39,586 nt of DNA, taken from NCBI GenBank assembly GCA_021734075.1, contig JAIPJW010000016.1:1-39586 (forward strand). The letters are read 5' to 3'. The stretch's first letter is position 1, and every line of letters starts with the position of its first letter. Of this stretch, positions 1,430 through 39,105 are shown piece after piece. Origin of the DNA: Cephaloticoccus sp. GTDB taxonomy: Bacteria > Verrucomicrobiota > Verrucomicrobiia > Opitutales > Opitutaceae. The notes beneath the pieces are model-generated. The model worked only from the letters and a program-made list of their open reading frames with translations, did no database searches and was not told where the DNA came from. The translations under genes and the position numbers were made by a program.

Positions 1430-1439
1430 TGCCAACCTG

Positions 1440-9872: not shown

Positions 9873-12800
9873 ATGCGGACCAAAGTTGGCATTGGATTTG
9901 CCCTGCTGCTGATTGTCGCAACCGGTGTCATGCGTTGGCCTGGGATGGACAAGGCCATCTGGAACATGGACGAGGCGGGACCTTCACCATCGCCCGGCAG
10001 ATCCTGGCTGGCGATATTCCCTACCGCGACGCCGTCGACCAGCGCACCCCCCTCGCTCCCTATTTTCAGGCGGCGGTCTTTGCCCTGGCAGGCCCGGCCA
10101 ACACCACGGCACAGCATCTGGCGCTGGTTTTGCTGATTGGATTGTCGGCCATCATGTTGTGGCAACTGGCCCGCCGGATGCGGGAAGAAGGCACCGGAAT
10201 TGCCGCTTCCTTCTGGTTCAGTCTGCTCTGCATGGTGCTGCCCACGGTGCGTGACACCATGCCGGCCCATACCTCGTGGTATCTAATTTTTTTCTCCACC
10301 GCGGGATTTTATGCCCTGATTCGGGCATGGAATTCTCCACGTCCGTGGTGGGCCTCGGCCAGTGGCATCGCCTTCGGGCTGTCCGTGTTGGCCAAGCAAC
10401 CGGGCGTGCTGGATTATGGGGTGGCCCTCGTCCTCCTCATTCTCCGGTGGTTGATCGTGCCCGAGGATCGCCGGAAAATATTCCGCCTGTTGGGTCTGTT
10501 GCTGGCGGGGCTCGCCCTGCCGCTTGCCTGACCGGGATTTATTTCGCCGCCCATGGCGCCCTGCGGGATTTGATCTACTACACGTGGACCTACAACAACA
10601 CCCTGTATGTCCCGGAAGTGCCACGCTGGGAGCGCTGGCAAACGATGAGTGTGCCTTTTGAACTGGCCTGGAAATATCATCCCCTGCTGCCGGTCATCGG
10701 CGTCCTGGGCGCAGGGTTGTTGCTGCGACGCGCCCTGCTCGATGCATTTCGTTCACCCCGACAATTCGATCTACCCTATTGGTTGATTCTGGGTTGGTGC
10801 GCCGCAGGACTCATCTCGACAACCCTTAGTGGCCGGGGATTTTCCCATTACTCGATTCAACTGATTCCCGGGCTCAGTCTGGCTTGCGGCTGGGTGACGG
10901 TCCGGTTGATCACGATTGTCCACCACTGGATTGGGTCCAACAAAACCCGCATTTTCGCCGGGATAACCGCGTCCATAATCCTGTTGATCTGGCTGCTCCT
11001 CCCCCTCGGCATCCGCCTGCAGTCCCTGCAGCTGCCCGAGCCTGGCACCGACGTGATCAGCGGCTTGGTGCGCCGGCTATCCGACCCAGCCGATCGCATC
11101 TTTGTCTGGGGCTACAATCCCGATGTATATGCCATCAGCGGTCGTATGCCGGCCACGCGTTTTCTTTACTGCACCTTCCTCACCGGACTCATTCCCTGGA
11201 CCAACCTCGACCCCTTGAAGAACACGGAATATGCCGTGGTGCCAGGTGCCTGGGACAAATTCCTCGCCGACTGGAATCGCCATCCGCCGATCCTCATTGC
11301 CGACGGACGCTCGCAGCGCGGCTTCCTGAAATACCCGATTGATGAACAACCCTTGCTCTGGCCGCTCATTGCGCGCAACTACGCGCAAGTCGAAATCGAT
11401 ACGGCAAACCAGATTGGGTTCTGGCTGTTCCGCCGCCTCGAGACAATCACACCGACTTCCCTCCCTGCTTTGGACACCAGTGACAAGATCCAGCTGCAGA
11501 TTGCTCCCACCGAGGTCGGAAGCATGGCCCGGGCATTTGTCCAAGCACCGGCAGGCACCCGGCTTGTTGAACTCTTCCTTGATGGTCGCCTCTATCTCCG
11601 GTTGCGCTGTGCCCCCGAGGCTCCGGTGTCAGCATGTTTTTTCATCCTGCCGCACGATCGATCTCCTGACATTAATCACATCCAGGCGCTCGCCCAGAGT
11701 GGGTATGGCCACCAAATCAGTGCGGAGCAGACGCTCGGCTCGGCCAAACCCCCACGGTTTTTGGCGGCCCGCCGCTATTGTTCTCGGGCCAAAACATAGC
11801 TGCGCTGGAATCCAGCACCATCACCGGTGGCCCTATTTTACCCAAGCAGGATGACCCGGAACACTGGGATGCACACCCGCCTTCCCGGCTCGTCTATCCC
11901 TGGTTGGAGGGAATGAATTCGCTGGCCATTGCTTTCGGTATTGAGGAATCGGCCTTGATCAAGCTCCCCCCCGAACGGGACAGATGGAATTGAAGTCGTT
12001 GTCCAGACCGAGGATTCAACAGGTGGACTCACCACGGTCTATCGCAATTATTTCGACCGGGAGACCGCCCGTCGGACGAAAGGCAGGATGATGGGCTACA
12101 CCCCTCTGCCCGCGCACCACGATGCCGGCCGGCTTATTTTGCAAATGACTCCTGGACCACGTTTCGACGTGGCTTTTGATTGGAGCTACTGGCTCTGGAT
12201 CCGGACTGATCCGGCACCCATCGACTTGCAGGTTGGAGGGAGTCTCAACTACCCAACCCACTTGGATACGCCTGCCGGGCTGCGGCAGGCCGAATTCAAC
12301 AACCAGTTCATCACGCTGGCCGAAGCGCCCACCGTCATTGATTTTGCCACGGCCCCAGATTTCAGCGAATTCCAAGGCGGGTTCGGCTTGTTGGACAGTG
12401 CCTGGACCGGTTCCGCCAAATCCGGCCCGGTGATCTTCTCCATCTCTTTGATCGGACCGGATGGCCACGGCTCAGTCTTGCTGGAGCGCCGCCTCGATCC
12501 AGCCAACCAGCCGGATGATCGGGGCGTCCGTCCCTTCAAGGTTGCCCTGCCGCAACCCTTGGCGGAACGCTTGCGGCTGAAGATTCAGTCCGTGAACCAA
12601 TCCGTCCCGGCCCAAGGATTTTGGACCGGTCTGACGGCCAGCACGATCAACATGTCACTCCCCCCCAAGGTGAGATCCCACCCGACAAGAGCAGCCGCTC
12701 GGATTTTGGGTTCAACCAGACAGTCGAGGATGGGAAGCCGTGCTTGTTTGCCCATGCGAACACCACCCTGGTCTGCAGCGTCTCAACGGAGTGTATGGCC

Positions 12801-13065
12801 TCATTCATGGGGCCTACACTGACGGCAATAGCACTGACGGGGTGGTCTTCAGTAACGAGGTTGAGGATGCGACGGGAAATCGCCGTGAGATCTTCCGTCG
12901 CCATTTGGTCCAGTTGCCCAAGCTGCAGACCGTGGCGCGCAGCCCTTGTCGGTTACATTGCCACGTGCGCCGGGAGGATGGATCATCCTGCACACCGCGG
13001 CCCCGCCGTCCGGTCATTTGAACCATGCCTGGAGCTACTGGCGCGAGTTGCAAGCCGGGTCCTGA
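9873..13065 (+). pseudogene. Frameshifted PMT/ArnT-like GT-C membrane protein with three C-terminal beta-domains
   Basis: Conceptually one long GT-C gene homologous to 17898-19967, split by seven single-base frameshifts near 9974, 10528, 11750, 11970, 12664, 12773 and 12908. Rejoined, it reads WNMDEGGTF (the first-loop Asp-Glu typical of GT-C), AGDIPYRDAVDQRTPL, many hydrophobic helices, FVWGYNPDVYAISGR, then three beta-domains (about 11815-12215, 12236-12650, 12670-13065) ending LNHAWSYWRELQAGS and a stop at 13063-13065. Six lesions lose one base and one gains one; five lie in C-runs or CC doublets and one in a short G stretch. No nonsense codon interrupts the rejoined frame. Starts at ATG 9873, six bases after the upstream stop. 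The longest intact fragment is the frame that ends at 11799. Either recent decay or base-calling errors would explain it; as written no full-length product can be made. Confidence 0.82.
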
Positions 13066-13154: not shown

Positions 13155-15656
13155 ATGACACCAACCAAATACCGATCCCCCCCGCTTTGGCTGATTTTTA
13201 TATTGGCGGCGGTGGTCGCCTTGGGTTTCGCCCTTTATACAAACCACGTTTGGGAGGACTACTACATCACCTACCGTTCCAGCAAGAATCTGGCGACGGG
13301 CCACGGGCTGGTCTATAATCTGGGGGAAAAGCTGCACACGTTCACGTCTCCTTTGGGAGTGTTGCTGCCGGCGGCAGCCAGTCTCATGACCGGCAACACT
13401 TCAGATGCGGCCGCGCTTTGGATTTTCCGGGTGATGTGCGCTGCCGCGTTGGGCGGAGGTATGGTGCTGCTGTTCATCCTTGCCCGCCGTCAAGGATTGA
13501 AGGGTCTCGCTTTACTGCTGCTCGTCGCCGGTTTGTTGTCTGACCCCAAGACCATAGATTTCACCATTAACGGCATGGAGACAGCATTTCTCCTGCTGTT
13601 TCTGGCTTATGCCTTTTGGAGCCACCTGACCACCGGTCCACGTCAATGGCTCCATCTTGGCGCGGCCTGGGCGGGCCTGATGTGGACACGACCTGACAGC
13701 TTCATTTACATTGGTCTGATCGCCGTCGGCTTTGGCCTGTTCAACGACGAGGTCCAATCCGGGAAAAGTCGCGGCGGCCTGATCCGACTGTATTTTCAAG
13801 CCGGACTGGTCACCACCGCACTTTACCTGCCGTGGTTGTTGTGGGCCACGGCCTACTACGGCACCCCCATTCCCCATACCATCACGGCCAAGGGAGGGAT
13901 CAGCGAAGCCCACACTCTGGGCGGTCTGTTGCTGACGGCGGTGCAATTGCCGTATCTGGCGTGGTTCAAGTCCTCTTCCCTCGAACTGACGTTCCTACCG
14001 TCCTATTACATGATCGGAGGTTGGCCCCAGGGCTTGATCTATGGATCACGCTTGCTGGCCACCCTCAGTTGCCTGCTTTGGTTGCTGCCGTGTTTGCGAC
14101 CCTGGACCAGGACCGCGTCCTTTGCCTATTTCGGAGCCCACGTTTATCTCACTTATTTTCCCTACTTTCCCTTCCCTTGGTATATACCCAGCACCACCCT
14201 GCTCGCATTGATCGCCCTCTGTGGCTTAGCCGACTGGCTCGGATCGGTCGCTCGTAACCGGAAACTGTTCCGCCGGGCCACGATCAGTCTGATCGCCGTG
14301 TTGCTGGTGGGCAATGCCTGGATGTTGGTCCAAGCAGCCCGTCAAGTGGCGGCGGGGCAGACTTGGGTTGAGGATGGCACCCGGCGTAAAATTGGTGAAT
14401 GGCTGCACAACAATGCTGCCGCCGGCGATACCGTGTTCATGGAACCGCTGGGTTACATCGGGTTCTTCTCCAATCTCAAAACCTATGACTGGCCGGGCAT
14501 GTCCTCCCGAGAAATGGTCGAGGCCCGCCAGCAGGTGGGCAGCAACTGGGCCACGCTCCTGCACTACCTCGAGCCGGACTGGGTAGTCTTGCGCCCGTTC
14601 GAGGTAGAACGGATCAACCGGCTTTCCTACCGTCTGCTGACCGATGATTACAAGGTGGCCCAAGTCTTTGACAACTCCGCCAAGGTGGCCGCCTTGCAGG
14701 TCAACGGCCTGCCTTACCTTGAGCACGATGCCCACTTTATCGTCTATCATCTGCGCCGGATTCCAATCGCGGAGCGATCGCCGGTGACATTGGCCCGGGA
14801 CGAGCAGTCGCTGGTCCCGTCCCAAATCAAAGTAACAGGCAAGGCGTATCACACGGATTTCAATGCCCACCGGATTGCCCTAACAGGGGTTCCCACCTTG
14901 ATCGAGTTTCCGCTCACACCGGATTTGTCTGAAGTCACCGGTGGCTTTGGCTTGCTCGACGATGAATGGCTGCAACCCGAGCCCGTCAAGCCGGTCGAGT
15001 TCCGCGTGAGTGTGATCACGCCCGATGGCACCGAACAGGAACTGCTCCGCAAGGTTCTCGATCCTTTCCACCGGGCGGACGACCGTGGCTTCCGGCCTTT
15101 CCGGTTGAGTCTGCCCCAGCCCCTCGCTGGGCATTTGCGTTTCCGCACGAGTTCGACCGCCCCAACAACCAGGCAAATCCGCGCGTTCTGGGGCGAACTG
15201 CGGGTGGTCCCTCTGCGGACGAGTCTACAGATGCACGGCCGGTCGATCCCAGCCGCATCGGCCAGCAGTTCCAGGTTCGGGTTTTTCAACACCGAGGAGG
15301 CTGGCCGGCCATGTTTGTTCGCGCACGCCCCTAGCATGTTGATCTACGACTGGCAGGAAGGCATGGGTGCATTCGCCGCGGAATTCGGCGTGATGCAGGG
15401 CGCCTACTCCAACGGTAATGTCACCGAGGGCGTGGTTTTCATCCTGGAACGTGAAACCGCCGACGGAAAAATCTCGGAGCTTTTCCGCCGTTACCTCGAT
15501 CCCCGCAAAGTCGAGGAAGATCGGGGCGACCAACAACTCCGGGTGATCGTCCCACCGACGCCGGGAGGCAGGCTGCGGTTGCGCACCGTCCCACCACCCT
15601 CAGGTCATCTCAATCATGCCTGGAGCTATTGGCGAAACCTGCGCACTGCATCCTGA
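13155..15656 (+). CDS. AftB-like GT-C membrane glycosyltransferase with two C-terminal beta-domains
   Basis: An 833-residue polytopic inner-membrane protein. After a first hydrophobic helix the motif HVWEDYYITYRSSKNLATGH, then HTFTSPLG, follows. This acidic first-loop pattern is shared with the mycobacterial arabinofuranosyltransferase AftB (GT89) and related GT-C proteins, which use polyprenyl-phosphate sugars on the outer face. Actual donor here is unknown. Residues about 559-685 and 709-833 are two copies of a beta-domain: LDPFHRADDRG in the first, YLDPRKVEEDRG and NHAWSYW in the second. They match the last two domains of the broken gene just upstream. The frame stays open back to 12621, but that stretch is the out-of-place tail of the broken gene; ATG 13155 is followed by the hydrophobic start seen in the paralog at 15841. 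Confidence 0.85.
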   Translation: MTPTKYRSPPLWLIFILAAVVALGFALYTNHVWEDYYITYRSSKNLATGHGLVYNLGEKLHTFTSPLGVLLPAAASLMTGNTSDAAALWIFRVMCAAALGGGMVLLFILARRQGLKGLALLLLVAGLLSDPKTIDFTINGMETAFLLLFLAYAFWSHLTTGPRQWLHLGAAWAGLMWTRPDSFIYIGLIAVGFGLFNDEVQSGKSRGGLIRLYFQAGLVTTALYLPWLLWATAYYGTPIPHTITAKGGISEAHTLGGLLLTAVQLPYLAWFKSSSLELTFLPSYYMIGGWPQGLIYGSRLLATLSCLLWLLPCLRPWTRTASFAYFGAHVYLTYFPYFPFPWYIPSTTLLALIALCGLADWLGSVARNRKLFRRATISLIAVLLVGNAWMLVQAARQVAAGQTWVEDGTRRKIGEWLHNNAAAGDTVFMEPLGYIGFFSNLKTYDWPGMSSREMVEARQQVGSNWATLLHYLEPDWVVLRPFEVERINRLSYRLLTDDYKVAQVFDNSAKVAALQVNGLPYLEHDAHFIVYHLRRIPIAERSPVTLARDEQSLVPSQIKVTGKAYHTDFNAHRIALTGVPTLIEFPLTPDLSEVTGGFGLLDDEWLQPEPVKPVEFRVSVITPDGTEQELLRKVLDPFHRADDRGFRPFRLSLPQPLAGHLRFRTSSTAPTTRQIRAFWGELRVVPLRTSLQMHGRSIPAASASSSRFGFFNTEEAGRPCLFAHAPSMLIYDWQEGMGAFAAEFGVMQGAYSNGNVTEGVVFILERETADGKISELFRRYLDPRKVEEDRGDQQLRVIVPPTPGGRLRLRTVPPPSGHLNHAWSYWRNLRTAS

Positions 15657-15840: not shown

Positions 15841-17853
15841 ATGAAAAGGGTCACACCGCGACAGGTTGCCGTCACAGTATTTACTGTCACCATTCTGCTC
15901 GCACTGGGCTTTGCACTCTACACCGGTCACGTTTGGGAAGATTACTACATCACCTTCAGGTCCAGCAGGAATCTCGCCACCGGTCATGGCTTGGTTTTCA
16001 ATCAGGGTGACCGTTTGCATACGTTCACGTCCCCGCTGGGTGTGCTCCTGCCGGCGCTCGCCAGTCTGTTGACCGGGAATACATCGGATACCGCCGCGCT
16101 CTGGGTGTTTCGTTTGATGTGCAGTGCCGCCCTAGGCGGCGCGGTGGTGCTGCTAAACGAATTGGTGCGTCAGTTTCACTACCCGGCGATCGCCGCCGGA
16201 TTTCTCGTGTTATATGTTGCCACTGATGCCAAGTCGCTCGACTTCACCATCAACGGCATGGAAACCGCTTTTATGCTGCTGTTCCTGGCCTATGCGTGGT
16301 GGGCCCATTACACCCCGAGGCCAAGGCAGTGGCTGCATCTGGGCGGAGCCTGGGCCGGACTAATGTGGACCCGGCCCGACAGTTTCATCTATATCGGACT
16401 CATCGCGGCTGGCGTCTGGTTGTTCAATGACGCCACCCACACGGGCTACGATCGACGACAAATGCTGGGGCTATATATCAGGGCCGGTCTGGTCACCACC
16501 CTCCTTTATGGTCCGTGGTTGCTTTGGGCGACTTGGTATTATGGCAGCCCGGTGCCCCATACGATCGTGGCCAAAGGCGCGCAGAGCGCCGGTGGCGGGG
16601 CACGGTTGTTGGATGGTATATGGCGAATGCCTTGGCTGATCTGGGAGGGGCGCACCGCGGCCGAAGCCGCGTTTCTTCCCTCCTATTACAGTTTTCCGTC
16701 CTGGCCGGCGTGGATGCTGCCCTTGGGGAGGATCCTGGCCACCATTTGTTCCGTGCTCTGGCTGATCCCCCGTCTCAAGCCGGAAGTCCGGGCCGCCTCC
16801 CTCGCCTATTTTGGCGGGGCGGCCTACCTGTCCTTTGTTCCTTATTTTCCCTTTCCCTGGTATTTCCCCAGCACCTTTTTGCTCGCAGCCTTGATTTTGG
16901 CCGGGACCATCGCGCAAGTCTGGTCTGACTTGCGCCTCTGGCCCCGCCGGGCCATTGGCCTGGGCGCCGGTATTATTCTGGCGGCGTCAATTGTCCTCAC
17001 CCTGCAATCAGCCCGACAGGTTCGAGCGCAACAGACCTATATCGAAACCGGCAATAGAAAGGTGATCGGTGAATGGCTCAAGGCCCATGCCCAGCCGGGT
17101 GATTCGGTCTTCATGGAGCCACTCGGTTACATTGGATACTTCTCGGGACTGAAAACCTTCGACTGGCCGGGCATGTCCTCCCGGGAGCTGGTCGATGCGA
17201 AACTGCTCGTGGGCACAAATTGGGGGGCACTCATTCGTTACCTCCAGCCCAATTGGCTCGTATTGCGACCGGACGGCGAGGGCGACCTGCCCAAAATCAG
17301 TCCCGATCTTGCCGCGTCCAATTACGAATTGGTCCGGGAATTCAATCGTCTGGACGAGGTGCAGCAACTCGATGTTCCCGGTCGCAAACTGCTGGAATTT
17401 GATGCCCGCTTTCGCGTCTACCATTTGATCAAGGGCACGCGCCACGATGTCGCCGGGATGGAGATTGCCTCTCCCTATGGCTCAAGCATCCGTCAAATCG
17501 GTGCCCAGCAGGTCCGTCTGGTGCATGCGCCGGGAGAAATGATCGTCGGGGTGCCCGCCGGCCGAACGGAAGTGTCCGGTTATTTCGGTTTTCCGCCTGA
17601 TGCCTACCAGGGGGAATCGCCCACTGACGGCGCAACGTTTCGCCTCTTTTGGAGCGACGGCCATGACCGCCTGGAACTGTTCAGCCGTCCGCTCGATCCG
17701 GCCAGCCGGAGTGCTGACCGCAACCTGCTAAGCTACACGGTGCCGCTGCCCTCACTCAAACCCGGGCGACAGGCGCGCCTGACCTTTGCCACCAAACCCG
17801 GGGGCAATTCAACCAAGGACTGGACATGCTGGAGCGCACCCGAATTTCATTAA
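15841..17853 (+). CDS. AftB-like GT-C membrane glycosyltransferase with one C-terminal beta-domain
   Basis: A 670-residue polytopic protein clearly paralogous to the previous gene: HVWEDYYITFRSSRN near residue 31, HTFTSPLGVLLPAL, DFTINGMETAFMLL and MEPLGYIGYFSGLKTFDWPG all have close counterparts there. It is predicted to transfer a sugar from a lipid-linked donor in the periplasm, as known for AftB-type GT-C enzymes; the donor and acceptor are unknown. It has only one C-terminal beta-domain (about residues 556-670, with SPTDGATFRLFW, RPLDPASRSADRN and DWTCW) against two in its neighbour, so it lost or never gained a copy. The frame is open from 15793, but ATG 15841 aligns with the paralog's start. 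A promoter candidate lies upstream. Confidence 0.85.
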   Translation: MKRVTPRQVAVTVFTVTILLALGFALYTGHVWEDYYITFRSSRNLATGHGLVFNQGDRLHTFTSPLGVLLPALASLLTGNTSDTAALWVFRLMCSAALGGAVVLLNELVRQFHYPAIAAGFLVLYVATDAKSLDFTINGMETAFMLLFLAYAWWAHYTPRPRQWLHLGGAWAGLMWTRPDSFIYIGLIAAGVWLFNDATHTGYDRRQMLGLYIRAGLVTTLLYGPWLLWATWYYGSPVPHTIVAKGAQSAGGGARLLDGIWRMPWLIWEGRTAAEAAFLPSYYSFPSWPAWMLPLGRILATICSVLWLIPRLKPEVRAASLAYFGGAAYLSFVPYFPFPWYFPSTFLLAALILAGTIAQVWSDLRLWPRRAIGLGAGIILAASIVLTLQSARQVRAQQTYIETGNRKVIGEWLKAHAQPGDSVFMEPLGYIGYFSGLKTFDWPGMSSRELVDAKLLVGTNWGALIRYLQPNWLVLRPDGEGDLPKISPDLAASNYELVREFNRLDEVQQLDVPGRKLLEFDARFRVYHLIKGTRHDVAGMEIASPYGSSIRQIGAQQVRLVHAPGEMIVGVPAGRTEVSGYFGFPPDAYQGESPTDGATFRLFWSDGHDRLELFSRPLDPASRSADRNLLSYTVPLPSLKPGRQARLTFATKPGGNSTKDWTCWSAPEFH

Positions 17854-17897: not shown

Positions 17898-19967
17898 GTG
17901 GCTGGCGTGGTGCTCGCGACCCTGGCCGTGGGAGTAATTTGGCTGCGCTGGCCAACCTTCGGCTTCAATGTTTGGAACGTGGATGAAGCGATCCATGCAG
18001 CGGTGGCCCGGGTCCTCATGGACGGTGGTATCCTCTACCATGACGCCATCGATCAAAGGCATCCCCTGACTTACTATGCAGTCGCGGCGATCTTCTCACT
18101 ATTTGGTGAAAACAACCTCTGGGCGGTGCGCTTTTTCGTGGCGGGCATCATCGCGGTCACGGCGTGGGTTCTCTATCTGTCCGGTCGTTCCCTGCGTCAT
18201 GCCGCCACCGGATTATGGGCGGCCGCACTCTTCGCCGTGCTTTCAACGACGGCCTTTTACCCGGGAGACGCATTCGCGGCCCACACGGAGTGGTTTGTTG
18301 CCTTCTTCTCCAGCGCTGCCGCCCTGACTTTTCTCAGCAGCCATTCGGTTCCCGGCACGGCAAGGCTGCTGGTTACGGGTGCATTGTTCGGCGGCGCCTT
18401 TCTGTCCAAGCAACCCGCACTGCTGGAACTGGCCGCACCACTGGGCGTGGTGGCTTACCACGGTTGGCGACAGCGCTCTCCGGGGCTGGTCGTGCTGGGA
18501 CGGATCGCGGTCATGATCGGCGGTTGGCTGGTTCCGGTGTTGGTGGTCGCCGGCTATTTTCGATTTCATCATGTCTTGGGCGAAGCCTTCTTTTACAGCT
18601 GGATCTATAATCTGACCTACTATGGACCAGAGATTGCCAGCGCCGACCGGGTCGCGTCCTTGTTGGTGCCATTCCGTTTATTTGGTGTCGCCTCGTCCTT
18701 GCTCATGCTGATCTGGGGAGCGGGCGCCTTGGGGACAATTCGACAGTTGTTGCAACGCATTCCCACTACGGCTGAAGCGGTGGCAAATCCCAGCTTGATC
18801 TTCGTGACCATCTGGTCGGTCACAAGTCTTCTGGCGGCCGCATCCGGCGGACGCGGGTTTGACCATTATGCCATCGAGTTTCTGGCTCCATTCTGCCTCG
18901 GCGGGGGCATCGTCCTGGGCCGCCTAACCAGGGCCATGGGGTCGAGCGGGACACGCACGTCAGTCCGGTTCATCGCGGCGCTGCTGCTCCTGGTGGTGAC
19001 CTGGCAAACCCTGGCCCCGCTCCCCTCAGCCCGTCGCCGCACCCTGCCTCCCGACCCCTCGGTGCGTATATCAACCTACATCGCGGCCCACAGCCAACCC
19101 ACCGACAAACTATTCGTCTGGGGATTTCATCCCGATATATATCTTTATGCCGACCGGCTGCCCGCGAGCCGGTATTTATACGCCACCTTTATCACCGGAT
19201 TGATTCCCTGGACCAATATTGCCCCCGGGCAAGACACGTCCTATGCCATCGTGCCCGGGGCCATGGAGACCCTGTTGCAGGACCTCGCCGCCACTGAACC
19301 TCGTTTCATTGTCGATTGCAGTGCGGGTCCCAACCGGCATTGGGGAAAATATCCCCTGACCAAATTCCCCCGGCTCGAAGCCTACATTGACGCCCGCTAT
19401 CAGCCGGTGGAAAGCGGGCAGTTTGTGCCGCAAGGTTTCCGATTATATCAACGACGGACCATGGACGAGCCTCCATCGGCTCAGGCTCCGACCACCGTGC
19501 CGGTCAGTGTGAGCGCGACCCTCACCATCGGCACCCTGGGAAACCCAGTGCCGCCGATCGAGGTCTCGGCACCCTATGGGGTCGGATTTTACCTTCATGA
19601 GGGCAGGTCGGAATATTTTGCCCATTCACCCTCACGTTTGGTTTACCCCGTGACAGCCGGAGCCACCGGCGTCAGGGGTGGGTTTGGCATTCGCCCAGCC
19701 GCCTACGTGGCGGAAAATCCCACTCCGACTGATGGGGCGGTGTTTATCATCCGCTGGCGTTCCACCACCGGCCTGGAGAAAATTCTCCTGCAACGACTGC
19801 TCCAGCCCCAAACGGTGCTTGAGGACCGGAAGATTATCAACTTCCATGTTGTTTTGCCGTCCCAGCAAGCTGGTGAATTGATCCTGCAGATCGAGCCTGG
19901 TCCGGCCGGCAATCCTGCCTGCGACTGGACTTTCTGGACGGATATATTGATCGAAACTTCCTCCTAG
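17898..19967 (+). CDS. PMT/ArnT-like GT-C membrane glycosyltransferase with C-terminal beta-domain
   Basis: A 689-residue integral membrane protein of the ArnT/PMT (GT39/GT83) type. After the first helix comes VWNVDEAIHAAVARVLMDG with the Asp29-Glu30 pair, where GT-C enzymes hold the catalytic acidic residue, then YHDAIDQRHPLTYY. About ten hydrophobic segments follow, then a periplasmic part with FVWGFHPDIYLYADRLPASR. The C-terminal beta-domain (about residues 554-689) has PTDGAVFIIRWR, a QRLLQPQTVLEDR variant of the LDP...DRG motif, and CDWTFW. GTG at 17898 is the only usual start codon before the first helix, as an in-frame stop lies at 17874-17876. It is the intact counterpart of the broken gene at 9873-13065. 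Confidence 0.84.
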   Translation: MAGVVLATLAVGVIWLRWPTFGFNVWNVDEAIHAAVARVLMDGGILYHDAIDQRHPLTYYAVAAIFSLFGENNLWAVRFFVAGIIAVTAWVLYLSGRSLRHAATGLWAAALFAVLSTTAFYPGDAFAAHTEWFVAFFSSAAALTFLSSHSVPGTARLLVTGALFGGAFLSKQPALLELAAPLGVVAYHGWRQRSPGLVVLGRIAVMIGGWLVPVLVVAGYFRFHHVLGEAFFYSWIYNLTYYGPEIASADRVASLLVPFRLFGVASSLLMLIWGAGALGTIRQLLQRIPTTAEAVANPSLIFVTIWSVTSLLAAASGGRGFDHYAIEFLAPFCLGGGIVLGRLTRAMGSSGTRTSVRFIAALLLLVVTWQTLAPLPSARRRTLPPDPSVRISTYIAAHSQPTDKLFVWGFHPDIYLYADRLPASRYLYATFITGLIPWTNIAPGQDTSYAIVPGAMETLLQDLAATEPRFIVDCSAGPNRHWGKYPLTKFPRLEAYIDARYQPVESGQFVPQGFRLYQRRTMDEPPSAQAPTTVPVSVSATLTIGTLGNPVPPIEVSAPYGVGFYLHEGRSEYFAHSPSRLVYPVTAGATGVRGGFGIRPAAYVAENPTPTDGAVFIIRWRSTTGLEKILLQRLLQPQTVLEDRKIINFHVVLPSQQAGELILQIEPGPAGNPACDWTFWTDILIETSS

Positions 19968-26401: not shown

Positions 26402-26428
26402 TCAGCAAGCCCATGCCTGCTGCATTAA

Positions 26429-29799: not shown

Positions 29800-30867
29800 A
29801 TGGCCAATAAAACGCTTCTCGTTACCGGTTCTTCGGGGCTTATCGGCTCCGAAGTTTGCGGTTATTTTTCCCAGCTGGGCTACGTCATCCACGGCGTGGA
29901 CAACAACCAACGCGCGGTTTTTTTTGGCCCCCAGGGTGACACGCGCTGGAATCAGGAACGTCTGCAACGTGACCTCAAGGGCTTTGTTCACCATGAGCTC
30001 GACATACGGGATCGGGCCGGCGTCCTTGCCCTGATCAAGTCCGTCAAGCCTGAAGTCATTGTGCATACGGCGGCCCAACCTTCTCATGACCGGGCCGCGG
30101 CCATTCCCTTCGATGATTTCGACACCAACGCGGTCGGCACGTTGAATCTGCTGGAAGCTGCCCGCCAGGCCTGCCCGGAATCACCATTTGTGCACATGAG
30201 CACCAACAAGGTGTATGGCGATGCGCCCAACCGCATCGCCCTGACCGAGTTGGCTACGCGTTGGGAATATGCTGATGCCGCGTATGCGAACGGCATCCCG
30301 GAAACCTTCACCATCGACCAATCAAAACATTCTCTCTTTGGCGCCTCCAAAGTTGCGGCTGATGTCATGGTCCAGGAATACGGTCGCTACTTTAATCTGC
30401 CCACCTGCTGCTTGCGTGGCGGTTGTCTGACTGGTCCCAATCACACTGGCGTCGAACTGCACGGTTTCCTCTCCTACCTCGTCAAATGCAATCTCGAAGG
30501 GCGGGAATACAAGGTATTCGGCTACAAGGGCAAACAGGTTCGCGACAATATCCACTCACTGGATGTGGCGCGTTTCATGGCTGCATTCGTGGCCGCACCC
30601 CGAGCGGGAGAAGTATACAATCTCGGTGGAGGCAAAGCCAACAGCACGTCCATTCTCGAGGCTTTCAAAATCGCCGAGAAATTCTCGGGCCAACCCCAGG
30701 TCTTCACCTACGTCGATCAAAACCGGGCCGGCGACCACATCTGCTACTATTCGGACCTGCGCAAGATGCGCGCGCATTATCCCTCGTGGGACATCACCCA
30801 ATCGCTGGATGAGACCATTCATCAAATCGTCGATGCGTGGAGAAAACGCTCCTCCACCACGACATGA
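29800..30867 (+). CDS. NAD-dependent SDR epimerase, CDP-paratose/tyvelose epimerase-like
   Basis: A 355-residue extended short-chain dehydrogenase. The NAD site GSSGLIG is at residues 11-17, followed by [40 protein letters not shown] and [18 protein letters not shown], an assembly typical of proteins annotated as CDP-paratose 2-epimerase relatives, which interconvert 3,6-dideoxyhexose nucleotides. The position of the catalytic tyrosine of the Y-x3-K motif holds phenylalanine (LFGASK, Phe180, Lys184). I recall this substitution as common in this subfamily, so the reaction may differ from true tyvelose epimerase. It starts at ATG 29800, 57 bases beyond the corrected end of the receptor gene, and its stop overlaps the next ATG (ATGA). 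It likely makes a nucleotide sugar for the transferases here. Confidence 0.83.
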
Positions 30868-33800
30868 TGCGAGCTTGGTTTGATCCCCGCAGTCTGCTCT
30901 TGACGGTTTTGCTGGCTTTGGCGGCGGCGCTGCCCGCGATCACCACCAGTGTTGAAAACCGGAATTATTATTTTTTCGACATCACGCTGACTTCGACTTC
31001 TCAGGGCTCCACCCAGTTTTTTTGGGACTTGGGTGACGGATTCACCGAATACAACTCCTCCCGGCAACCGATCAAAGTCGAAACGGAGCCAGTGGTCTAC
31101 CGATTCATGATGCCCATGGGCCGCTTCACGGCCCTGCGTTTCGATCCCATCGACGGAGTCGGTCAGTTCACTTTTTCACACGCTCAAATCGTGGACCGGC
31201 GCGACCGAATTGTGCACGTGTTTGGTCCCGAGGATTTGCTGCCCGGCGGCAACATCACCCGTGCAAAACCACGCGGGATGAAGCTTGATGTCGTGACCAG
31301 CCAGTCGTCCAACGACCCAATCCTCAACCTGCGACTCGTCGAGCCCCTCGTGCTCAAGCCTGATGCCCGGATCTGGTGGGAACTGGGTTGGCCCGCCGCC
31401 TGGCCGGTGCTGTTGCTCGGTTGCCTGTTGAGTTGCCCGCTCGTGGCCCGCGGACTTTCCCGGAGCGCCACGCAAGTGCTGGCCTACGCCGAATCCAGGC
31501 CGGCCTCCTCCATCATGTTGACGGCAGTTATCATGGTGGCGATCCAGTGCCATCCGGTGCTGTTTCAGGGGCGATCATTCGCCTCACCCAACAATGGAGG
31601 GCACATGCTCTATGAGAGTCTGCCTACCCTACCCGGATATACCGATGCCATGTCGGCCAACACCGGCAGTTCCGACACCGGAGCCCTGCTTTTCCAGCAT
31701 CTTTATTATCCGATGGTCCAACGCGATGCCTTGGCGGCCGGTGAACTGCCCTTGTGGAATCGCTACTCACTCAGTGGAGAACCCTTGCTGGGCCAGGGCC
31801 AATCCATGTTCGGTGATCCATTCAACTTTATCACCATTGCCACGGACGGAGCCGCTTGGGCCTGGGATATTCGATTCCTCATTGTCCGCTGGTTGCTGGC
31901 AGGCTCTCTGGGTGGAATCGTCTGGCTGCTGACCCGCCGCATCGGCCCGGCCGTCCTGACCACGATTGGGGCAGGTTTCCTGGGATTCTTTACTTACCGG
32001 CTGGTCCACCCGGCAAATTTCAGCGTCTGCTATTCGCCCTTGATCCTGCTCGCCTGGTGCGGCCTTCACGGCACCACCACTCCACGTGGCATGGCCCGAT
32101 GGCTGGCCGCCCTGGTCGCGGCCAATTGGTTGGTGCTGACCAGTGGCACCGTGAAGGAGGCCTACATGCTGATCGTATGTTTGAATCTTGCCGGGGTCAT
32201 CCTGCTGCTGCTCCGCTCCGATACGGCCGGTCGACGGTCCCGGCTTTTGGGGGCCGCCAGTCTGGCAGGATTTGGTTTCATCCTGATCACCGCCCCCAAT
32301 TGGATTTCTTTTCTTAGCGCATGGGCTCACTCCATGACCGGCTATGATGTGCCTCAGGCGAACACGCTGACGTGGTCGCATTTCGTTGGATTCTTCGACG
32401 ACATCTTCTACCGCCAGACTCAAAATGATGAAAATGTCGTGGCCCCGGCCCTGAACTTTCTCTTTTTCTCAGGCTTCCTTTGGTGGCTCGTCCAACCACG
32501 TGCCTGGCGCACTACCCGAACGGGCTGGGCCTTGCTCTTGGCGTCTGCCGTGCCTTTCAGCCTGGCCTTTGGCTTGGTGCCCACGTCGGTGATCGAAAAG
32601 ATCCCCTTCGTCGGCAACATCGTGCACGTCGGCAATACTTTCTCCTGTATCCTGCTCAGTCTGCTGGGAGTATTCGCCGGGGTGGGCTTCGCCGATGCCT
32701 GGGCCCAACTGGGCAAAAGCGAAGCCCGTCCGGCCATGGTGCGCTACTGGTTGTTGGCACTGCTGATTTTCGGCCTCTATTTCCTGACCACCCGGGAGTC
32801 TTCCTACAGTCATTTTTTCGTCGGTTATGCCATATCTCTCGGCGTCGTTTTAATGCTGCTGCCCCTCGGACTGCACTGGGGTCTGGCCAATCCGACCAAG
32901 CCCGGACCCGTGTGGATCATGCTCGCACTCGGCTTACCTTTGCTGTGTTGGCGCCACAGTCAGTATCGGGAATCAGCCTTTGATCACTTTGTGTTCATAC
33001 CCGGTCCCCGCGCGGACCTGCACGCACCCTCACCGGCCATCACGCTGCTGAAGCGTAATCTGAACGAACCTGGTCGGGTGAATGGGTGGGGTTCCACGCT
33101 CTACGCCTCCTACAACACCGCGCTGGGCTTGGAGGGGGTCTATGGCGTCGATGCCGTGCGCAGTCAGCAATACCATGAACTGGCTGATGCATTGGGACTA
33201 CAACGGGTCTGGAACTGGGACTGGCCGAACCGGGAATCCGATTCGCGCGACCTCATCAAGAAATACGACCTCTACAACGTGACTCATTGGGTCGCGACCC
33301 ACCGCGATGGCGATCATCCAATTGATGGCTTGCAACTGCTCGGACAGGCTGACCTTGACGTCTATGCAAGTCCGACTGCGTGGCCACGGGCGTTTTATTG
33401 CAATGGGGTGTTGGACTATGACACCCCGGCGGATTTTGCCCGCCTACTACTGACTGGTGATGGTCGACCGTTTGCTGCCGTGCAAACCGGCGACGAGTCC
33501 GATCTCCCCCGATTAAACGCGGCCGCAAAGCTGATCCAGCCGGCCATTGACTACCGCTTCACCCCAAACAGCACATCCTTCACGATCGATGCTCCCGGGC
33601 CAGGGGTGGCGGTGTTAACTGAAACGTATTATCGGGAGGACTTTCAAGTGACGGTTAACGGCCAACCGGCGGACTATTTTCGCCTGAATCATGCCTTCCG
33701 CGGAATCAGGATCCCCTCCGCCGGTGCGTATGAAATCACTTTCAACTACTGGCCCCAATATTTCACCCTCGCACTTTGGCTCGCCTTCGTGGGAGCCATG

Positions 33801-33869
33801 GGTCTCGTCGGTGGACTGGTCTGGCTGCTCCGCCCCAATGCGTCGTTCGCCTCGCAGCCCGTCCTTTGA
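30864..33869 (+). CDS. YfhO-like polytopic membrane protein (GT-C superfamily)
   Basis: A 1001-residue inner-membrane protein of YfhO type. Family marks are [20 protein letters not shown] near residue 295, the preceding loop with [13 protein letters not shown], numerous helices between about 170 and 700, and the C-terminal beta-part with [20 protein letters not shown] and a last hydrophobic helix. In Bacillus, YfhO and relatives are implicated in glycosylating lipoteichoic acid with polyprenyl-linked sugars; in Gram-negative glycan loci the role is unproven. An N-terminal periplasmic beta-rich part (about residues 35-165, with [19 protein letters not shown]) precedes the usual core, which makes the protein longer than many YfhO proteins. 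The frame extends upstream to a GTG at 30837; the ATG at 30864, overlapping the upstream TGA, is preferred. Confidence 0.85.
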
Positions 33870-34630
33870 TGAATGCCGCGCCCAACCCGCTTCCGCCGCT
33901 ACCGGCCCTGCCCAAGCTTTCCATCGTGGTTCCCTTGTTCAACGAGCACTCCACCGTGACCGCAGCACTCGATGCGATCACGACCAAGCGCATTGCCGGT
34001 TGGGAACTCGAGGTCATCATCGTGGAAAGCAACTCAACCGATGGCACCAGGAAACTCGTGCTGCCCTATGCCAATCGTCCCGGGGTCAAACTCCTGTTGG
34101 AGGAAAAACCACGCGGCAAGGGTCACGCCGTCCGTCACGGATTCACTCAGGCCACGGGCGATGTTTTGTTGATTCAGGATGGAGATTTGGAATACGATCT
34201 GGCCGACTACGAAAAGTTGCTCGCGCCCATCCGGACAGGTGCCCACTCCTTTGTGCTCGGGTCCAGGCACAGTGACAGCCTGTTCATTCGCAAGTTCGAT
34301 GAGCAGGTGCTGCATGCCTTTGCCCTCAACGCCGGTCACTGGTTTTTCACCGCCCTGATCGATGTGTCGCTGGGTCTGACGCTCCGTGATCCCTTCACCA
34401 TGTATAAGGTCTTCCGGCGCGAATGTCTGGCCGGGCTGACTTTTGAGGCCAACCGTTTCGATTTCGATTGGGAACTGCTGATCAAGCTGGTGCGCAAGGG
34501 GCATATCCCGATTGAAATTCCGGTGAAATACACCTCCCGATCCTTCAAGGAAGGCAAAAAGGTCTCCATGTTCCGGGACCCGCCCACTTGGCTTTGGGCC
34601 TGGGCCAAATACCGCTTTCAGCGGCTCTGA
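33869..34630 (+). CDS. GT2 glycosyltransferase, polyprenyl-phosphate sugar synthase-like
   Basis: A 253-residue family 2 (GT-A, inverting) transferase. It has LSIVVPLFNEHSTV near residue 15, IIVESNSTDGT, EKPRGKGHAVRHGF, the metal-binding DGDLEYD at 104-110, and GSRHSD. The resemblance is to dolichol/undecaprenyl-phosphate mannosyl- or glucosyl-transferases, which make the lipid-linked sugars used by GT-C enzymes; a membrane anchor is not obvious, so it is probably peripheral. ATG 33869 shares its first base with the stop of the YfhO-like gene (TGATG), so both are coupled. The frame runs upstream to 33776 inside that gene but this is not needed. A natural hypothesis is that it makes the donor for the YfhO-like protein. 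Confidence 0.87.
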   Translation: MNAAPNPLPPLPALPKLSIVVPLFNEHSTVTAALDAITTKRIAGWELEVIIVESNSTDGTRKLVLPYANRPGVKLLLEEKPRGKGHAVRHGFTQATGDVLLIQDGDLEYDLADYEKLLAPIRTGAHSFVLGSRHSDSLFIRKFDEQVLHAFALNAGHWFFTALIDVSLGLTLRDPFTMYKVFRRECLAGLTFEANRFDFDWELLIKLVRKGHIPIEIPVKYTSRSFKEGKKVSMFRDPPTWLWAWAKYRFQRL

Positions 34631-34655
34631 CCCCAACACCCTCGGCACGTAGAGT

Positions 34656-35099: not shown

Positions 35100-35218
35100 A
35101 AGAGGTCTTGGATTCAATCATATCCAAACTGGCTCGATCAACCTCGAAAGTGCACGACCCGCTGAATGAGCCATTTCACGCTTCACCTGCAGTCCGGGGT
35201 CTGTTTCCCTCGCGAGAC

Positions 35219-36286
35219 ATGCGCATCCTCATCACCGGCATTTGTGGCTTTGTCGGCAGCACCTTGGCTCGCGAACTTTTGGCCTTGGGCCATGACGTCT
35301 GCGGATTCGACAACTACATCCGCCCTGGCAGCGAGACCAATCGCAAACCTCTGGAAGCGCTGGGGGCTCGGATAATCACCGCCGATTTGCGCGATATCGC
35401 CCGGATGGAAAAGCTGCCCGTGGCTGACTTTGTCATCGATGCCGCCGCCAATCCCAGCGTGCTGGCAGGAGTGGACGGCAAGACCAGCAGCCGCGAACTG
35501 GTGGACCACAATCTGGTCGGCACGATCAATATTCTGGAATACTGCAAGACTCACCAGGCCGGATTCATCCTGCTTTCAACCTCGCGGGTCTATGCCATCG
35601 CTCCCCTGACTTCGCTGCCTGTGGCGGTGGTAGATAACGCCCTGACCCCCGATGCCACCCTGTCTCTGCCCCCGGGTCTGACCATCAGGGGACTGGATGA
35701 ATCCTTCTCCACTCAAGCTCCCATATCCCTCTATGGGGCAACCAAATTGTGCTCCGAAATACTGGCGCTGGAATACGGCGAAACCTTCGGTTTTCCTGTC
35801 TTCATCAACCGATGTGGGGTTCTGGCTGGCGCCGGACAATTCGGTCGCGCGGACCAGGGTATTTTTGCCTACTGGATCAATGCCTGGTTGAGGAAACGAC
35901 CACTCAAGTATCTGGGGTTCGGAGGCCACGGGCATCAGGTGCGCGATTGCTTGCATCCCCGCGATCTCATCCCCCTTCTGTCGCGCCAACTCACGGCCCC
36001 GAAAATGGATTCTGCGGACCGGGTGGCCAATTTTTCCGGCGGAACCAACTCGGCCATGTCCCTGCGACAATTAAGTGATTGGTGTGCCCAACGATTCGGA
36101 CCACATTCCGTTCAGCCCGATGGAGCAAAGCGGCAGTTCGATATTCCCTGGATTGTGCTGGACCATGCCAAGGCCACTCGTCTTTGGCACTGGCAGCCCG
36201 CAACCCCCACCCGCGAGATCCTCAAGGAAATCGCCAATCATGCCGAAGCCAACCCAACCTGGCTGGAACTGTCCGCACCACGTTGA
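35219..36286 (+). CDS. NAD-dependent SDR epimerase/dehydratase, paratose-epimerase-like
   Basis: A 355-residue extended SDR. The NAD motif GICGFVG is at residues 7-13 of MRILITGICGFVG, FDNYIRPGS follows strand 2, STSRVYAI carries the active Ser/Thr, and YGATK provides Tyr172 and Lys176, so the catalytic set is complete, unlike the paralog at 29800. RCGVLAGAGQFGRADQGIFA and GHQVRDCLHPRDL are as in CDP-tyvelose/paratose epimerases; I am less sure of the substrate than of the fold. The frame is open from 35108, but ATG 35219 places the glycine-rich motif at the usual distance from the N-terminus. It begins a new rightward unit after the minus-strand gene and ends 21 bases before an intrinsic terminator. 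Confidence 0.83.
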   Translation: MRILITGICGFVGSTLARELLALGHDVCGFDNYIRPGSETNRKPLEALGARIITADLRDIARMEKLPVADFVIDAAANPSVLAGVDGKTSSRELVDHNLVGTINILEYCKTHQAGFILLSTSRVYAIAPLTSLPVAVVDNALTPDATLSLPPGLTIRGLDESFSTQAPISLYGATKLCSEILALEYGETFGFPVFINRCGVLAGAGQFGRADQGIFAYWINAWLRKRPLKYLGFGGHGHQVRDCLHPRDLIPLLSRQLTAPKMDSADRVANFSGGTNSAMSLRQLSDWCAQRFGPHSVQPDGAKRQFDIPWIVLDHAKATRLWHWQPATPTREILKEIANHAEANPTWLELSAPR

Positions 36287-36307
36287 AACGCTTCGCCCGA
36301 AACGCAT

Positions 36308-36332
36308 ATCCCGGCGACGAGCCGGGATTTTT
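36308..36332 (+). terminator. Rho-independent terminator after the epimerase gene
   Basis: ATCCCGGC (36308-36315) and GCCGGGAT (36321-36328) form a perfect eight-base-pair stem with loop GACGA, followed by a run of five T's including the last stem base. It sits 21 bases after the stop at 36286 and is the only textbook intrinsic terminator I found in the window. Confidence 0.8.
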
Positions 36333-36546: not shown

Positions 36547-39105
36547 ATGCTGCGGTTCCTCGATGGGCACGCCACGCTTTACTGGCCGTTGGCGGTGGGC
36601 GCTTCACTGCTGTTCCTGACCTCAGCCATTTGGCCCCGCACGCTTGGCCCGGCACGAGGCGCGTCATCAAATCCCTGGTTATTCCCCCTGTTGATTTTGC
36701 TGGTTCTGGTCTGCTGGCGGTGGCCGTTTTTGTCCTATGGCAATGAGCTGAACACGGATGAGAGCCAGTTCATTGCGGGGGCCCTGACACTCCGTCATGA
36801 TCCCCTGTTTTGGCGATCGGTTGACGGCATGACCGCCGGACCGTTGGTGTATTACGCGCTGGTCCCATGGACTCTGGTTGGAATACCACTTGATTATTTC
36901 ACCGCGCGGTTCACCGCATTGTTACTGATTTGGTTGGCGCTCGGGTTGTGCTACTTGACCTTGCGCAAATATTATGGGGAACGCTCCGCCCGGTTGGGCC
37001 TGGTGCCGGGCGTGATCTATATCGCTTCCATCGCGTCCGACGATCTGAACCACTACTCCTCGGAACTGATCTCCCTGCCCTTGACGGCAGCCGGGGTCGC
37101 CTTGCTCTGCACTACGAACGATGAGGATGCTCCCCGTTATCGAAAATGGTTGCTGCTCGGATTGGTGGCCGGACTCCATCCATGGGCCAAATTGCAGACG
37201 GGACCCATCGGGGCGATCCTGGCATTGTTCGCCCTGGTCATCCTGCTGCGGGCGCACAATACCGATCGAGGCACCAGGACCAGGCAGTGCGCCGCACTGA
37301 TCGGGGGGGTGTTGATGCCGGCTGTTACCGTGATCGTGGCCACCACCAGCGGAGGAGTCTGGCGGGATTTTTACCAGAGCTATATACTCCAAAACCTCAT
37401 CTATGCGGGCGCAAGTTTGTCCGAATCATGGCTGCCCCCTGATCTGTCCTTGCTCCACCCGGCGTTCCTTTCCTTTTGTCTAGTTCTGGGCCTCTCGCTC
37501 GTGCTTGTCCTCCTGACCGCATCAACCAGAAGAACATTTAGCAGACCATTTGTGCTGGGAGGATGCCTTTTCGGGGTGGCCTTGTTTTGCGTCCTTTTTC
37601 CCGGCCGACCTTATCTGCACTATGTCCAGTTGTTGCTGGTGCCTGTCGTGCTATGGAGTGGAGCGGCTGTGGGGGAATACGGCATCGCTCCCAAACCAGG
37701 GTTCACCGGTCTTGCGGTCAGGATCGCGGTGCTGTTAGGGGCAACCGGTCTCCTGATCACCCGGCTGTTGTCCCCGATGCCGTCTGTGCTCGGCCAGTTG
37801 CTCACCCACCGGATGAAATCACTCACCGAGGTCGATAGTGTCATCAGCCATCTCACGGATCCGGGCGATCGACTCGCCATCTGGGGTTGGGATGCTCAGT
37901 CCTATGTCACCTGCAGTCTCATTCAGGGGACCCGTGAGGCTTACAGCGTAAACTGCATCATCCCGTCACCCCTGCAGGAATATCACCGCCAAACCTACTT
38001 GGCGGATTTTCGCAGCCACCTGCCTGAAGTGTTCCTCGATTCAGTCGGCCCCAATGATATATTTTACCAGGACCGAGCCAGCACCGCGCATGAGAATTTT
38101 CCCGCGTTAGCCGACTTGATCGCACGCAACTATGCTCTGGTGATCGATCTGGATCATTCCCGGGTTTACGCCCGACGTGATGTTCTGAGCCAAAGGAAAA
38201 TCTCGCCTTTTCAGATGCAAAAGGAACTGGCCAGCAGTCGCCTACCCAACTGGATCGACCAACATTTGCCGGCGGAAAACCTGCGGGAGCAACATGGTCA
38301 GTTTGATCGCATCAATGGGCGGGACGTCTTGATGTTACTGCCGCCTGGCCGGGCGGAATGGACCCTGCAAGGCAATGAGCGCGAACTGTTGCTGGAAACC
38401 GGCTATGTCCCGCGTGCGATCAATCAAACCGATGGGGATGGCACGGGCTTCGTCGTGGAAGTTAGCGCTCCCGATGGCACCCGGCGGATCATCCAATCAT
38501 TTCTGGTCAACCCCCGCGATCATGCCGATGATCGCATTCCCCAGAGTCGGCGAATTCCTCTTCCTCCCTACGCAACGGGTTCCAAACTGACCGTTACCAC
38601 GAACCCTGGACCGGGCCAGAACAATGCCTGGGACTGGGCATATATCACTCATGTCAGGTTTCTCCGCAGCCCGAATTATACCTGGCGGCAATTTCCCGGA
38701 TTCAACCGCCCGCCCAATGCAGCATTCAGCCCCCTTTCCACTCTGATCGAAGAATCCGGGGTCAACCTGCTGATGTTGCATGCCCCCTCCAGCATCAGCT
38801 TTCGTCTGACGGGAAGCGAAAAACAATTGAGTTTTGCCTTCGGCTTCATCGCCGGAGCTTATCGCGGGGAACAGGGCACCAACGGTGCGACTTTCCGGGT
38901 ATCGGCACAACTCCCGGATGGCACCATCTCCCCGTTGGCATCCCGGCAATTGCAGCCGCTTACGGCAGTGGCGGACCAGGGTCGGCAACTCTTGAAATTG
39001 AATCTACCAGTTTTGCCCCCCAACTCGCTACTGAAAATCGAGATAGATCCCGATGGTAGCAACGCCTTCGATTGGACCTACCTCACTGATGTCTGGCTTG
39101 ATTGA
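36547..39105 (+). CDS. GT-C membrane glycosyltransferase with two C-terminal beta-domains
   Basis: An 852-residue polytopic protein of the PMT/ArnT-like GT-C class. The first loop has NELNTDESQFIAGALTL with Asp71-Glu72, followed by GPLVYYALVPW and about ten helices up to residue 430. The periplasmic part includes LAIWGWDAQSYVTC, a counterpart of FVWGFHPD in the 17898 protein. Two beta-domains close it: about 589-709 (variant LVNPRDHADDR, AWDWAYI) and 736-852 (HAPSSISFRL, GTNGATFRVSA, AFDWTYLTDVWL). The ATG at 36547 follows AAGGGGGA by four bases, one of the few good ribosome sites in the window; the frame also has an ATG at 36532 without such a site. It follows a terminator, so it starts a new transcription unit. 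Confidence 0.84.
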   Translation: MLRFLDGHATLYWPLAVGASLLFLTSAIWPRTLGPARGASSNPWLFPLLILLVLVCWRWPFLSYGNELNTDESQFIAGALTLRHDPLFWRSVDGMTAGPLVYYALVPWTLVGIPLDYFTARFTALLLIWLALGLCYLTLRKYYGERSARLGLVPGVIYIASIASDDLNHYSSELISLPLTAAGVALLCTTNDEDAPRYRKWLLLGLVAGLHPWAKLQTGPIGAILALFALVILLRAHNTDRGTRTRQCAALIGGVLMPAVTVIVATTSGGVWRDFYQSYILQNLIYAGASLSESWLPPDLSLLHPAFLSFCLVLGLSLVLVLLTASTRRTFSRPFVLGGCLFGVALFCVLFPGRPYLHYVQLLLVPVVLWSGAAVGEYGIAPKPGFTGLAVRIAVLLGATGLLITRLLSPMPSVLGQLLTHRMKSLTEVDSVISHLTDPGDRLAIWGWDAQSYVTCSLIQGTREAYSVNCIIPSPLQEYHRQTYLADFRSHLPEVFLDSVGPNDIFYQDRASTAHENFPALADLIARNYALVIDLDHSRVYARRDVLSQRKISPFQMQKELASSRLPNWIDQHLPAENLREQHGQFDRINGRDVLMLLPPGRAEWTLQGNERELLLETGYVPRAINQTDGDGTGFVVEVSAPDGTRRIIQSFLVNPRDHADDRIPQSRRIPLPPYATGSKLTVTTNPGPGQNNAWDWAYITHVRFLRSPNYTWRQFPGFNRPPNAAFSPLSTLIEESGVNLLMLHAPSSISFRLTGSEKQLSFAFGFIAGAYRGEQGTNGATFRVSAQLPDGTISPLASRQLQPLTAVADQGRQLLKLNLPVLPPNSLLKIEIDPDGSNAFDWTYLTDVWLD

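Follow-up and report, generated by a model that had tools for sequence, protein, structure and literature searches.

A recurrent C-terminal module on GT-C-type membrane proteins of Opitutaceae, predicted to be a divergent relative of NPCBM/CBM51

The window, the whole stretch of DNA analysed here, spans 39,586 nucleotides and is contig C181 of a Cephaloticoccus sp. genome (3.53 Mb in 212 contigs). Profile searches find a module of about 115 residues ten times in the window, with seven intact copies and three in a frame-broken gene (Table 1), and three further times on contig C54 of the same genome. The preliminary description had placed about ten copies in these genes, and the profile matches bear this out. 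When each of eight copies was left out in turn (the two split copies, 1 and 3, were excluded from this set), the profile of the other seven recovered it at E 7.1e-17 to 2.9e-32, and the same profiles gave zero matches against 2769 reversed ORFs. The segments thus align above background, as had been expected, and the repeat is real, beyond chance. The split copies score more weakly than the intact ones: against a profile built from the seven intact copies, the two pieces of copy 1 give E 7.7e-4 and 9.2e-9 and the first piece of copy 3 gives 8.1e-9.

Table 1. Module carriers, neighbouring genes and module copies in the window, with predicted assignments
Feature	Position	Strand	Evidence
Broken PMT-like GT-C gene (pseudogene), three C-terminal modules	9873..13065	+	three-frame translation
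AftB-like GT-C protein, cluster c2, two modules	13155..15656	+	ORF; NF041481 E 1.8e-5, 23 bits
AftB-like GT-C protein, cluster c2, one module	15841..17853	+	NF041481 E 3.8e-8, 31.8 bits
K, PMT_2-type GT-C protein, cluster c3, one module	17898..19967	+	PF13231 E 4.8e-10; full-length model
L, FTYGPLG-type membrane protein, cluster c1, one module	20003..22369	+	core clustering, c1 search
GT-C protein, cluster c5, two modules	36547..39105	+	c5-c3 link, probability 99.7
GT2 glycosyltransferase	33776..34630	+	PF00535 E 8.4e-24
NAD-dependent sugar epimerase/dehydratase	29800..30867	+	PF01370 E 3.4e-43
Second NAD-dependent sugar epimerase/dehydratase	35108..36286	+	PF01370 E 1e-32
Three GT4/GT2 glycosyltransferases	1374-3689, 3656-5929, 5988-9866		Pfam
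Module copy 1	11871..12207	+	two frames, 11871-11957 E 0.06 and 11971-12207 E 2.3e-6
Module copy 2	12268..12642	+	E 1e-43 (own row in profile); leave-one-out E 2.1e-24
Module copy 3	12764..13056	+	two frames, 12764-12907 E 1.3e-7 and 12871-13056 E 2.8e-10
Module copy 4	14835..15209	+	profile match, leave-one-out
Module copy 5	15270..15650	+	profile match, leave-one-out
Module copy 6	17470..17850	+	profile match, leave-one-out; structure predicted
Module copy 7	19569..19955	+	profile match, leave-one-out
Module copy 8	21992..22366	+	profile match, leave-one-out
Module copy 9	38287..38664	+	profile match, leave-one-out
Module copy 10	38728..39102	+	profile match, leave-one-out

For two carriers the tabulated start is that of the preliminary description, and the mechanical ORF begins slightly upstream (15793 for the gene at 15841 and 36532 for the gene at 36547). 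Protein K passes the curated score of PMT_2 (40.3 against 26.1 bits). The first carrier is broken by at least seven frame changes, as read from its three-frame translation, and the K-type (PMT-like) profile recognizes its core piece at 10489-11673 (E 1.7e-80). Its counterpart in G002, a relative of the same genus, has internal stops too, while matches free of internal stops occur in four other genomes (G048, G201, G231, and G401); this three-module gene seems to be decaying in the genus shared by the window genome and G002. Among the neighbours, the GT2 enzyme is presumably a DPM1/GtrB-like maker of a polyprenyl-phosphate sugar donor. The GT4/GT2 trio carries another repeated N-terminal beta-type region with GW.. 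and VDVRA/SDIRA motifs, which had no Pfam match at the thresholds used; G002 and G048 have apparent counterparts of the trio, judged from the first 50 residues, with the gene order preserved. Genes for an ECF sigma factor, FecR, and a TonB-dependent receptor sit in the middle of the glycosyltransferase cluster (24816-29728). Two large membrane proteins, at 22386-24551 and 30837-33869, had no module match; the latter matches YfhO (PF09586) at 29.2 bits against a cut-off of 28.5 and, judged by eye, carries its own beta-type region at the N-terminus.

At convergence the module profile matches 105 stretches in 86 ORFs at loci from 17 genomes, a count that holds some duplicates from overlapping fetched loci (G018, G028). 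Eight of these ORFs lie at a locus edge, and 73 of the 78 uncut ones have predicted transmembrane (TM) helices by a crude hydropathy count; one ORF, at L063 (G035), has a non-protein-like beginning and a single TM helix at a stricter threshold. Each of these 73 has 3-26 residues between its last module and the stop codon, in agreement with the earlier claim that the module sits at the C-termini of membrane proteins. The five uncut ORFs that lack TM helices are pieces of broken genes: three from the window, the G002 counterpart, and a 122-residue ORF of G001 (L060:11703-12068), a lone module that follows a broken membrane protein of perhaps another core type.

A search with the c1 (FTYGPLG) alignment found matches in 18 of 288 genomes of the phylum, our own included. 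Once four edge-cut ORFs and two duplicates are left out, the module is present on 11 cores whose C-terminus is uncut, a count that takes in our own genome and one weak match (E 8e-5), and absent from seven, which end 3-61 residues past the last core-profile match. Because one core family occurs both with and without it, the module is an added C-terminal tail on existing cores. For the K-type core, the module is present in 14 of 15 relatives and the fifteenth is cut by a contig end; all 12 of the 15 loci that are long enough have a second module-bearing ORF directly downstream. Paired module genes of cluster c0 lie tail to tail in six genomes, 2-33 bases apart or slightly overlapping (L066:512-4904 on contig C54, L046, L048, L057, L059, and L062), and the two partners occupy different regions of the module tree.

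Clustering of the 77 cores of at least 300 residues at 80 bits gave seven clusters with 25, 19, 13, 10, 5, 4, and 1 members (one c1 gene being counted twice). Profile-profile comparison links c3-c5 at a probability of 99.7, c5-c6 at 98.9, c0-c3 at 95.2, c0-c5 at 92.5, c3-c6 at 87.4, c0-c1 at 83.4, c2-c5 at 82.0, c1-c5 at 79.6, and c2-c3 at 45.5; the remaining 12 pairs reach at most 6.3, and c4 has no link to the other six (at most 3.8). Since six of the seven are joined directly or in a chain, the clusters are distinct families, most of which plausibly belong to one superfamily. The proposal that the module is attached to at least three unrelated membrane cores therefore stands as to the number of core types, which is seven, but not as to unrelatedness: six clusters appear to be remote kin, and just c4 is unlinked.

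The module had also been called interchangeable. A tree built quickly from 95 modules over 116 columns, with 33 of its 92 inner branches unresolved and the unassigned group treated as a label, needs 24 core-label changes against a mean of 60.0 under shuffling, and 0 of 200 shuffles went as low, which indicates that modules mostly descend with their cores; few as the columns are, we dropped the idea of free shuffling on this count. A few swaps do appear. The clearest is seen in G048 and G002, where the PMT-like gene with three modules has a final one that groups with the final one of the adjoining two-module AftB-like gene at an SH-aLRT of 97, and its middle module groups with the first of the AftB-like gene at 93, on a branch not starred. 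'Interchangeable' is thus too strong a word, the general pattern being of modules following their own core family. Between the two tails in the window, DNA likeness amounts to one short stretch, 74% over 76 bases, from which the exchange between these neighbouring genes looks old.

The shared signature (HAPS, TDG, LDP/DRG, and DW.YW) was followed across 95 distinct modules of at least 100 residues, with duplicates from the overlapping loci of G018 and G028 removed. The His is kept in 79, the Pro of HAP in 67, the Gly of TDG in 89, the Pro of LDP in 93, the Asp and Arg of DRG in 78 and 82, the Asp and Trp of DW in 81 each, and the last Trp in 57. The signature as first described therefore persists over the family but is eroded in inner tandem copies: the Trp of DW is present in 7/15 inner tandem, 13/14 last tandem, and 61/66 single copies, and the His in 6/15, 13/14, and 60/66, respectively. 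Last tandem copies keep the Asp of DW in just 7 of 14. By these alignments the inner tandem copies are degenerate, with hallmark residues apparently lost.

An AlphaFold2 model of copy 6, computed with eight window sequences as input, shows nine strands, arranged as a beta sandwich, with two short helices (pLDDT 83.9, pTM 0.78). Among the 16 PDB matches that Foldseek returned at E<=0.001 are nine CBM6, three CBM51, two chains of one GH43 enzyme, one Akkermansia enzyme, and BcsB. Over the 50 matches listed, the highest query TM scores belong to CBM51 (2vmh, 0.64; 2vmg and 2vng_B, 0.62; CBM51 chains overall, 0.57-0.64). The E values are modest (best 1.5e-4), the rmsd is 2.7-6 A for most CBM rows, and jelly-rolls that do not bind carbohydrate, namely ephrin receptor domains and a phage tail, are also among those 50. 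We take the module to be a predicted beta jelly-roll of the galactose-binding-like kind, a fold that had been anticipated for it and that the model and the Foldseek matches support.

Sequence comparison points in the same direction. In a single hhalign comparison, with just six sequences on the NPCBM side, the modules match NPCBM at a probability of 94.9 (E 4.7e-8), against at most 0.4 for ten shuffled controls and 0.1 for one reversed control. Columns 41-132 of the 135 in NPCBM/CBM51 (PF08305) align with the module, with a His (GTHA in NPCBM, HAPS in the module), a Gly, and a closing D..W in register; the first ~40 NPCBM columns fall outside the alignment, and the closing motif differs (D-H-x-x-W in NPCBM, D-W-x-x-W in the module). 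No module in eight genomes of the Opitutaceae family reaches the Pfam NPCBM cut-off of 23.9 bits. The best there scores 19.0 bits (G048:C1:1656117-1656440), and the sub-cut-off matches in these genomes comprise four modules and three non-modules. Within the 44-member module set, five match NPCBM at E<=10 (best 3.5e-4), and NPCBM is the sole Pfam family matched by more than one module when ten whole proteins and the modules were searched. NCBIfam gave one weak match each to two families over the 44 modules, and the module profile gave chance-level matches against PDB sequences (for example, serum response factor and release factor 2). The suspected NPCBM kinship, then, holds at the superfamily level: the hhalign probability and the top CBM51 TM scores are consistent with the module having diverged from the NPCBM/CBM51 branch within the galactose-binding-like jelly-rolls, a prediction drawn from model and alignment together. 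CBM51 is usually found on secreted hydrolases, whereas the module is on putative membrane transferases.

A full-length model of K (pLDDT 83.0, pTM 0.74, 15 sequences) matches the GT-C enzymes AglB, STT3, PglB, ArnT, Emb, DPY19, Pmt, and AftA, with loose overlay (query TM 0.27-0.50, rmsd mostly 9-25 A). The K core is thus predicted to have a GT-C fold, which would extend to the other cores through the profile links given above, none of them above 3.8% for c4. K shows 11 hydropathy peaks, two of which are close together, and the charge difference between its predicted loops is weak. Eleven TM helices and an N-terminus assumed to be cytoplasmic would put the K tail in the periplasm; the TM count in this one modelled protein suggests the periplasmic location proposed earlier. 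In the GT-C superfamily, catalysis relies on an acidic residue of the first periplasmic loop. D29 and E30, which follow TM1, are invariant in 15 K-type sequences, and D43 is invariant in nine c1 sequences.

The module-tailed families are found chiefly in Opitutaceae among the Verrucomicrobiota genomes searched. With the first profile at E<=0.001, 17 of 95 genomes (our own included) gave 1 to 17 matching stretches each, 16 of them from the same family and one from the same order. A wider profile at E<=1e-4 matched 40 of 387 genomes of the phylum, again with our own included. Sixteen of the 40 have a match stronger than 1e-20 (15 from the same family, one from the same class), and the remaining 24, with best matches of 8.6e-11 to 5.4e-5, were counted apart from module carriers. 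We dropped the possibility that these 24 mostly hold the same tail, as the 14 loci viewed show at most one TM helix in the available part of the ORF; one of the 24 genomes, G154, has a c1 core with a weak tail. Loci L101-L114 hold an NPCBM-like stretch (SDGV.F ... CD.YWG) within large proteins of other Verrucomicrobiota families, with E 5.9e-12 to 6.3e-6 against the module profile. Pfam searches of eight of these 14 loci gave CBM9 and DUF5696 above cut-off, one each, weaker matches to DUF6259, DUF5696, NPCBM_assoc, or pAdhesive_8 in three, and nothing in four. Such stretches are a possible source of the module. A K-type motif scan of 84,980 species, which reaches close relatives only, gave 26 stretches, of which 15 loci are relatives, labeled Opitutaceae, Opitutia, Verrucomicrobia bacteria, Oleiharenicola, Lacunisphaera, Didemnitutus, and Cephaloticoccus (including the Cephaloticoccus sp. 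MAG contig JAURHD010000015.1); some of their contigs are apparently identical to contigs of genomes in the other counts. We take Oleiharenicola, Lacunisphaera, and Didemnitutus to be Opitutaceae. An L-type profile run on viral contigs gave 40 pattern stretches, with no relative among them.

GT-C enzymes use lipid-phosphate sugars at the outer face of the membrane. We propose that the C-terminal, probably periplasmic module, borne by several putative GT-C families, would hold the acceptor, a growing surface glycan such as an O-antigen, a capsule, or another exopolysaccharide. The chain would in this way stay close to the catalytic groove as the membrane core adds a sugar taken from a polyprenyl-phosphate donor, and enzymes that share a kind of tail would work on identical or related chains. 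The proposal draws on the predicted jelly-roll and NPCBM kinship, on the C-terminal position and conserved gene order of the carriers, on the acceptor-binding tails of the Emb and GT136 enzymes discussed below, and on the epimerases, the GT2 enzyme, and the GT4/GT2 enzymes encoded in the window. We think it fairly probable that the divergent, CBM51-related tail holds an acceptor glycan. Counting against it are the degenerate inner copies, the GT136 tail, dispensable in the conditions used for that enzyme, and the seven tail-less c1 relatives.

Other roles for the tail have to be weighed against these same data. It might be a protein-protein docking domain that joins the GT-C enzymes of the cluster to one another, or to a scaffold or exporter, having retained a CBM fold and lost sugar binding. 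Reuse of the module on several cores of one gene cluster, the conserved order in which its carriers adjoin, the tandem copies, and the Foldseek match to BcsB, a protein in the crown of the cellulose secretion machine (9fmt, E 6.3e-4), would all suit such a role. However, module lineages mostly stay with their own core families, and the 44-member set is just 19-41% identical to its first row, so that one shared partner surface is not suggested; moreover, the fold matches at E<=0.001 are mostly carbohydrate-binding modules. We consider docking unlikely.

It is improbable, in our view, that the tail serves as a structural cap, stabilizing the enzyme or shielding its active site from the periplasmic side as a lid that has no ligand. 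A private cap is expected to co-evolve with one core, whereas this module family occurs across seven core clusters, and neighbouring genes with different cores seem to have shared a two-module tail. The best-conserved positions (Gly, Pro, Asp-Trp, and Arg) could be purely structural, inner copies are degenerate, and the same core type exists without the tail, all of which would nonetheless be compatible with a cap. That the likeness is due to chance, or to a beta segment of a generic kind with little information, has a negligible likelihood: the window copies share just 23-35% identity with the first alignment row, but the leave-one-out recovery with silent reversed sequences refutes this explanation, and the convergence of the profile and the C-terminal position in every uncut TM-bearing carrier also speak against it.

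To return to a tail that holds the acceptor glycan, a more far-reaching version is that the module is a new carbohydrate-binding family, derived from NPCBM/CBM51, that marks enzymes for a common acceptor throughout the Opitutaceae lineage, with tail swaps between neighbouring genes reassigning an enzyme to that chain. We put this forward tentatively and think it may well not hold. If true, any GT-C enzyme serving the main surface glycan would carry the tail, whatever its donor or core. The natural series of same-core proteins with and without the tail makes the need for the tail in catalysis, acceptor choice, or chain length testable, and would also allow the tail to be used to predict acceptor specificity where the glycan of a genome is uncharacterized. 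We found no description of the module in the open-licence literature, a scope outside which most subscription journals fall, and nothing there on NPCBM glycosyltransferases in Verrucomicrobia or on Opitutaceae exopolysaccharide glycosyltransferases.

GT-C enzymes with CBM tails are already known. The Emb arabinosyltransferases form family GT53, and Emb chains are among the matches of the K model. None is among the 50 matches listed for the module, and the candidate assignment of the modules as Emb domains was dropped on this ground. The likeness to EmbA, EmbB, and EmbC is one of architecture, in which the GT-C core leads into a periplasmic beta-sandwich CBM at the C-terminus that is linked to acceptor binding (PMC3044687, PMC7341804). 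The EmbC tail is a CBM in which changes of conserved tryptophans cut acceptor binding and activity (PMC3044687); the C-terminal CBM of EmbB is proposed as an acceptor path, and EmbB differs from the module carriers in having an N-terminal CBM as well (PMC7341804). The GT136 ribofuranosyltransferase ORF12 of Citrobacter youngae is likewise a GT-C protein, one whose additional beta domain (residues 503-652) lies in the periplasm and binds the enzyme's unmodified LPS (O-antigen) backbone; under the conditions tested, the enzyme stayed active when this domain was deleted (PMC11127046). That domain is described as immunoglobulin-like, and its likening to the module, as for the CBM tails in print on GT-C enzymes of other phyla, is by description (PMC7341804, PMC11127046). 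AftB has 11 TM helices and a C-terminal periplasmic domain with a mix of helices and strands (PMC12041299), whereas the module is a predicted jelly-roll. The two c2 proteins of the window match the AftB family NF041481 weakly; at 23 and 31.8 bits they are far under its cut-off of 1050, and we therefore rejected their identification as AftB. In these papers CBM tails concern particular GT-C enzymes (Emb, AftD, and GT136); here one tail family recurs on seven core clusters and is present or absent within a single core family.
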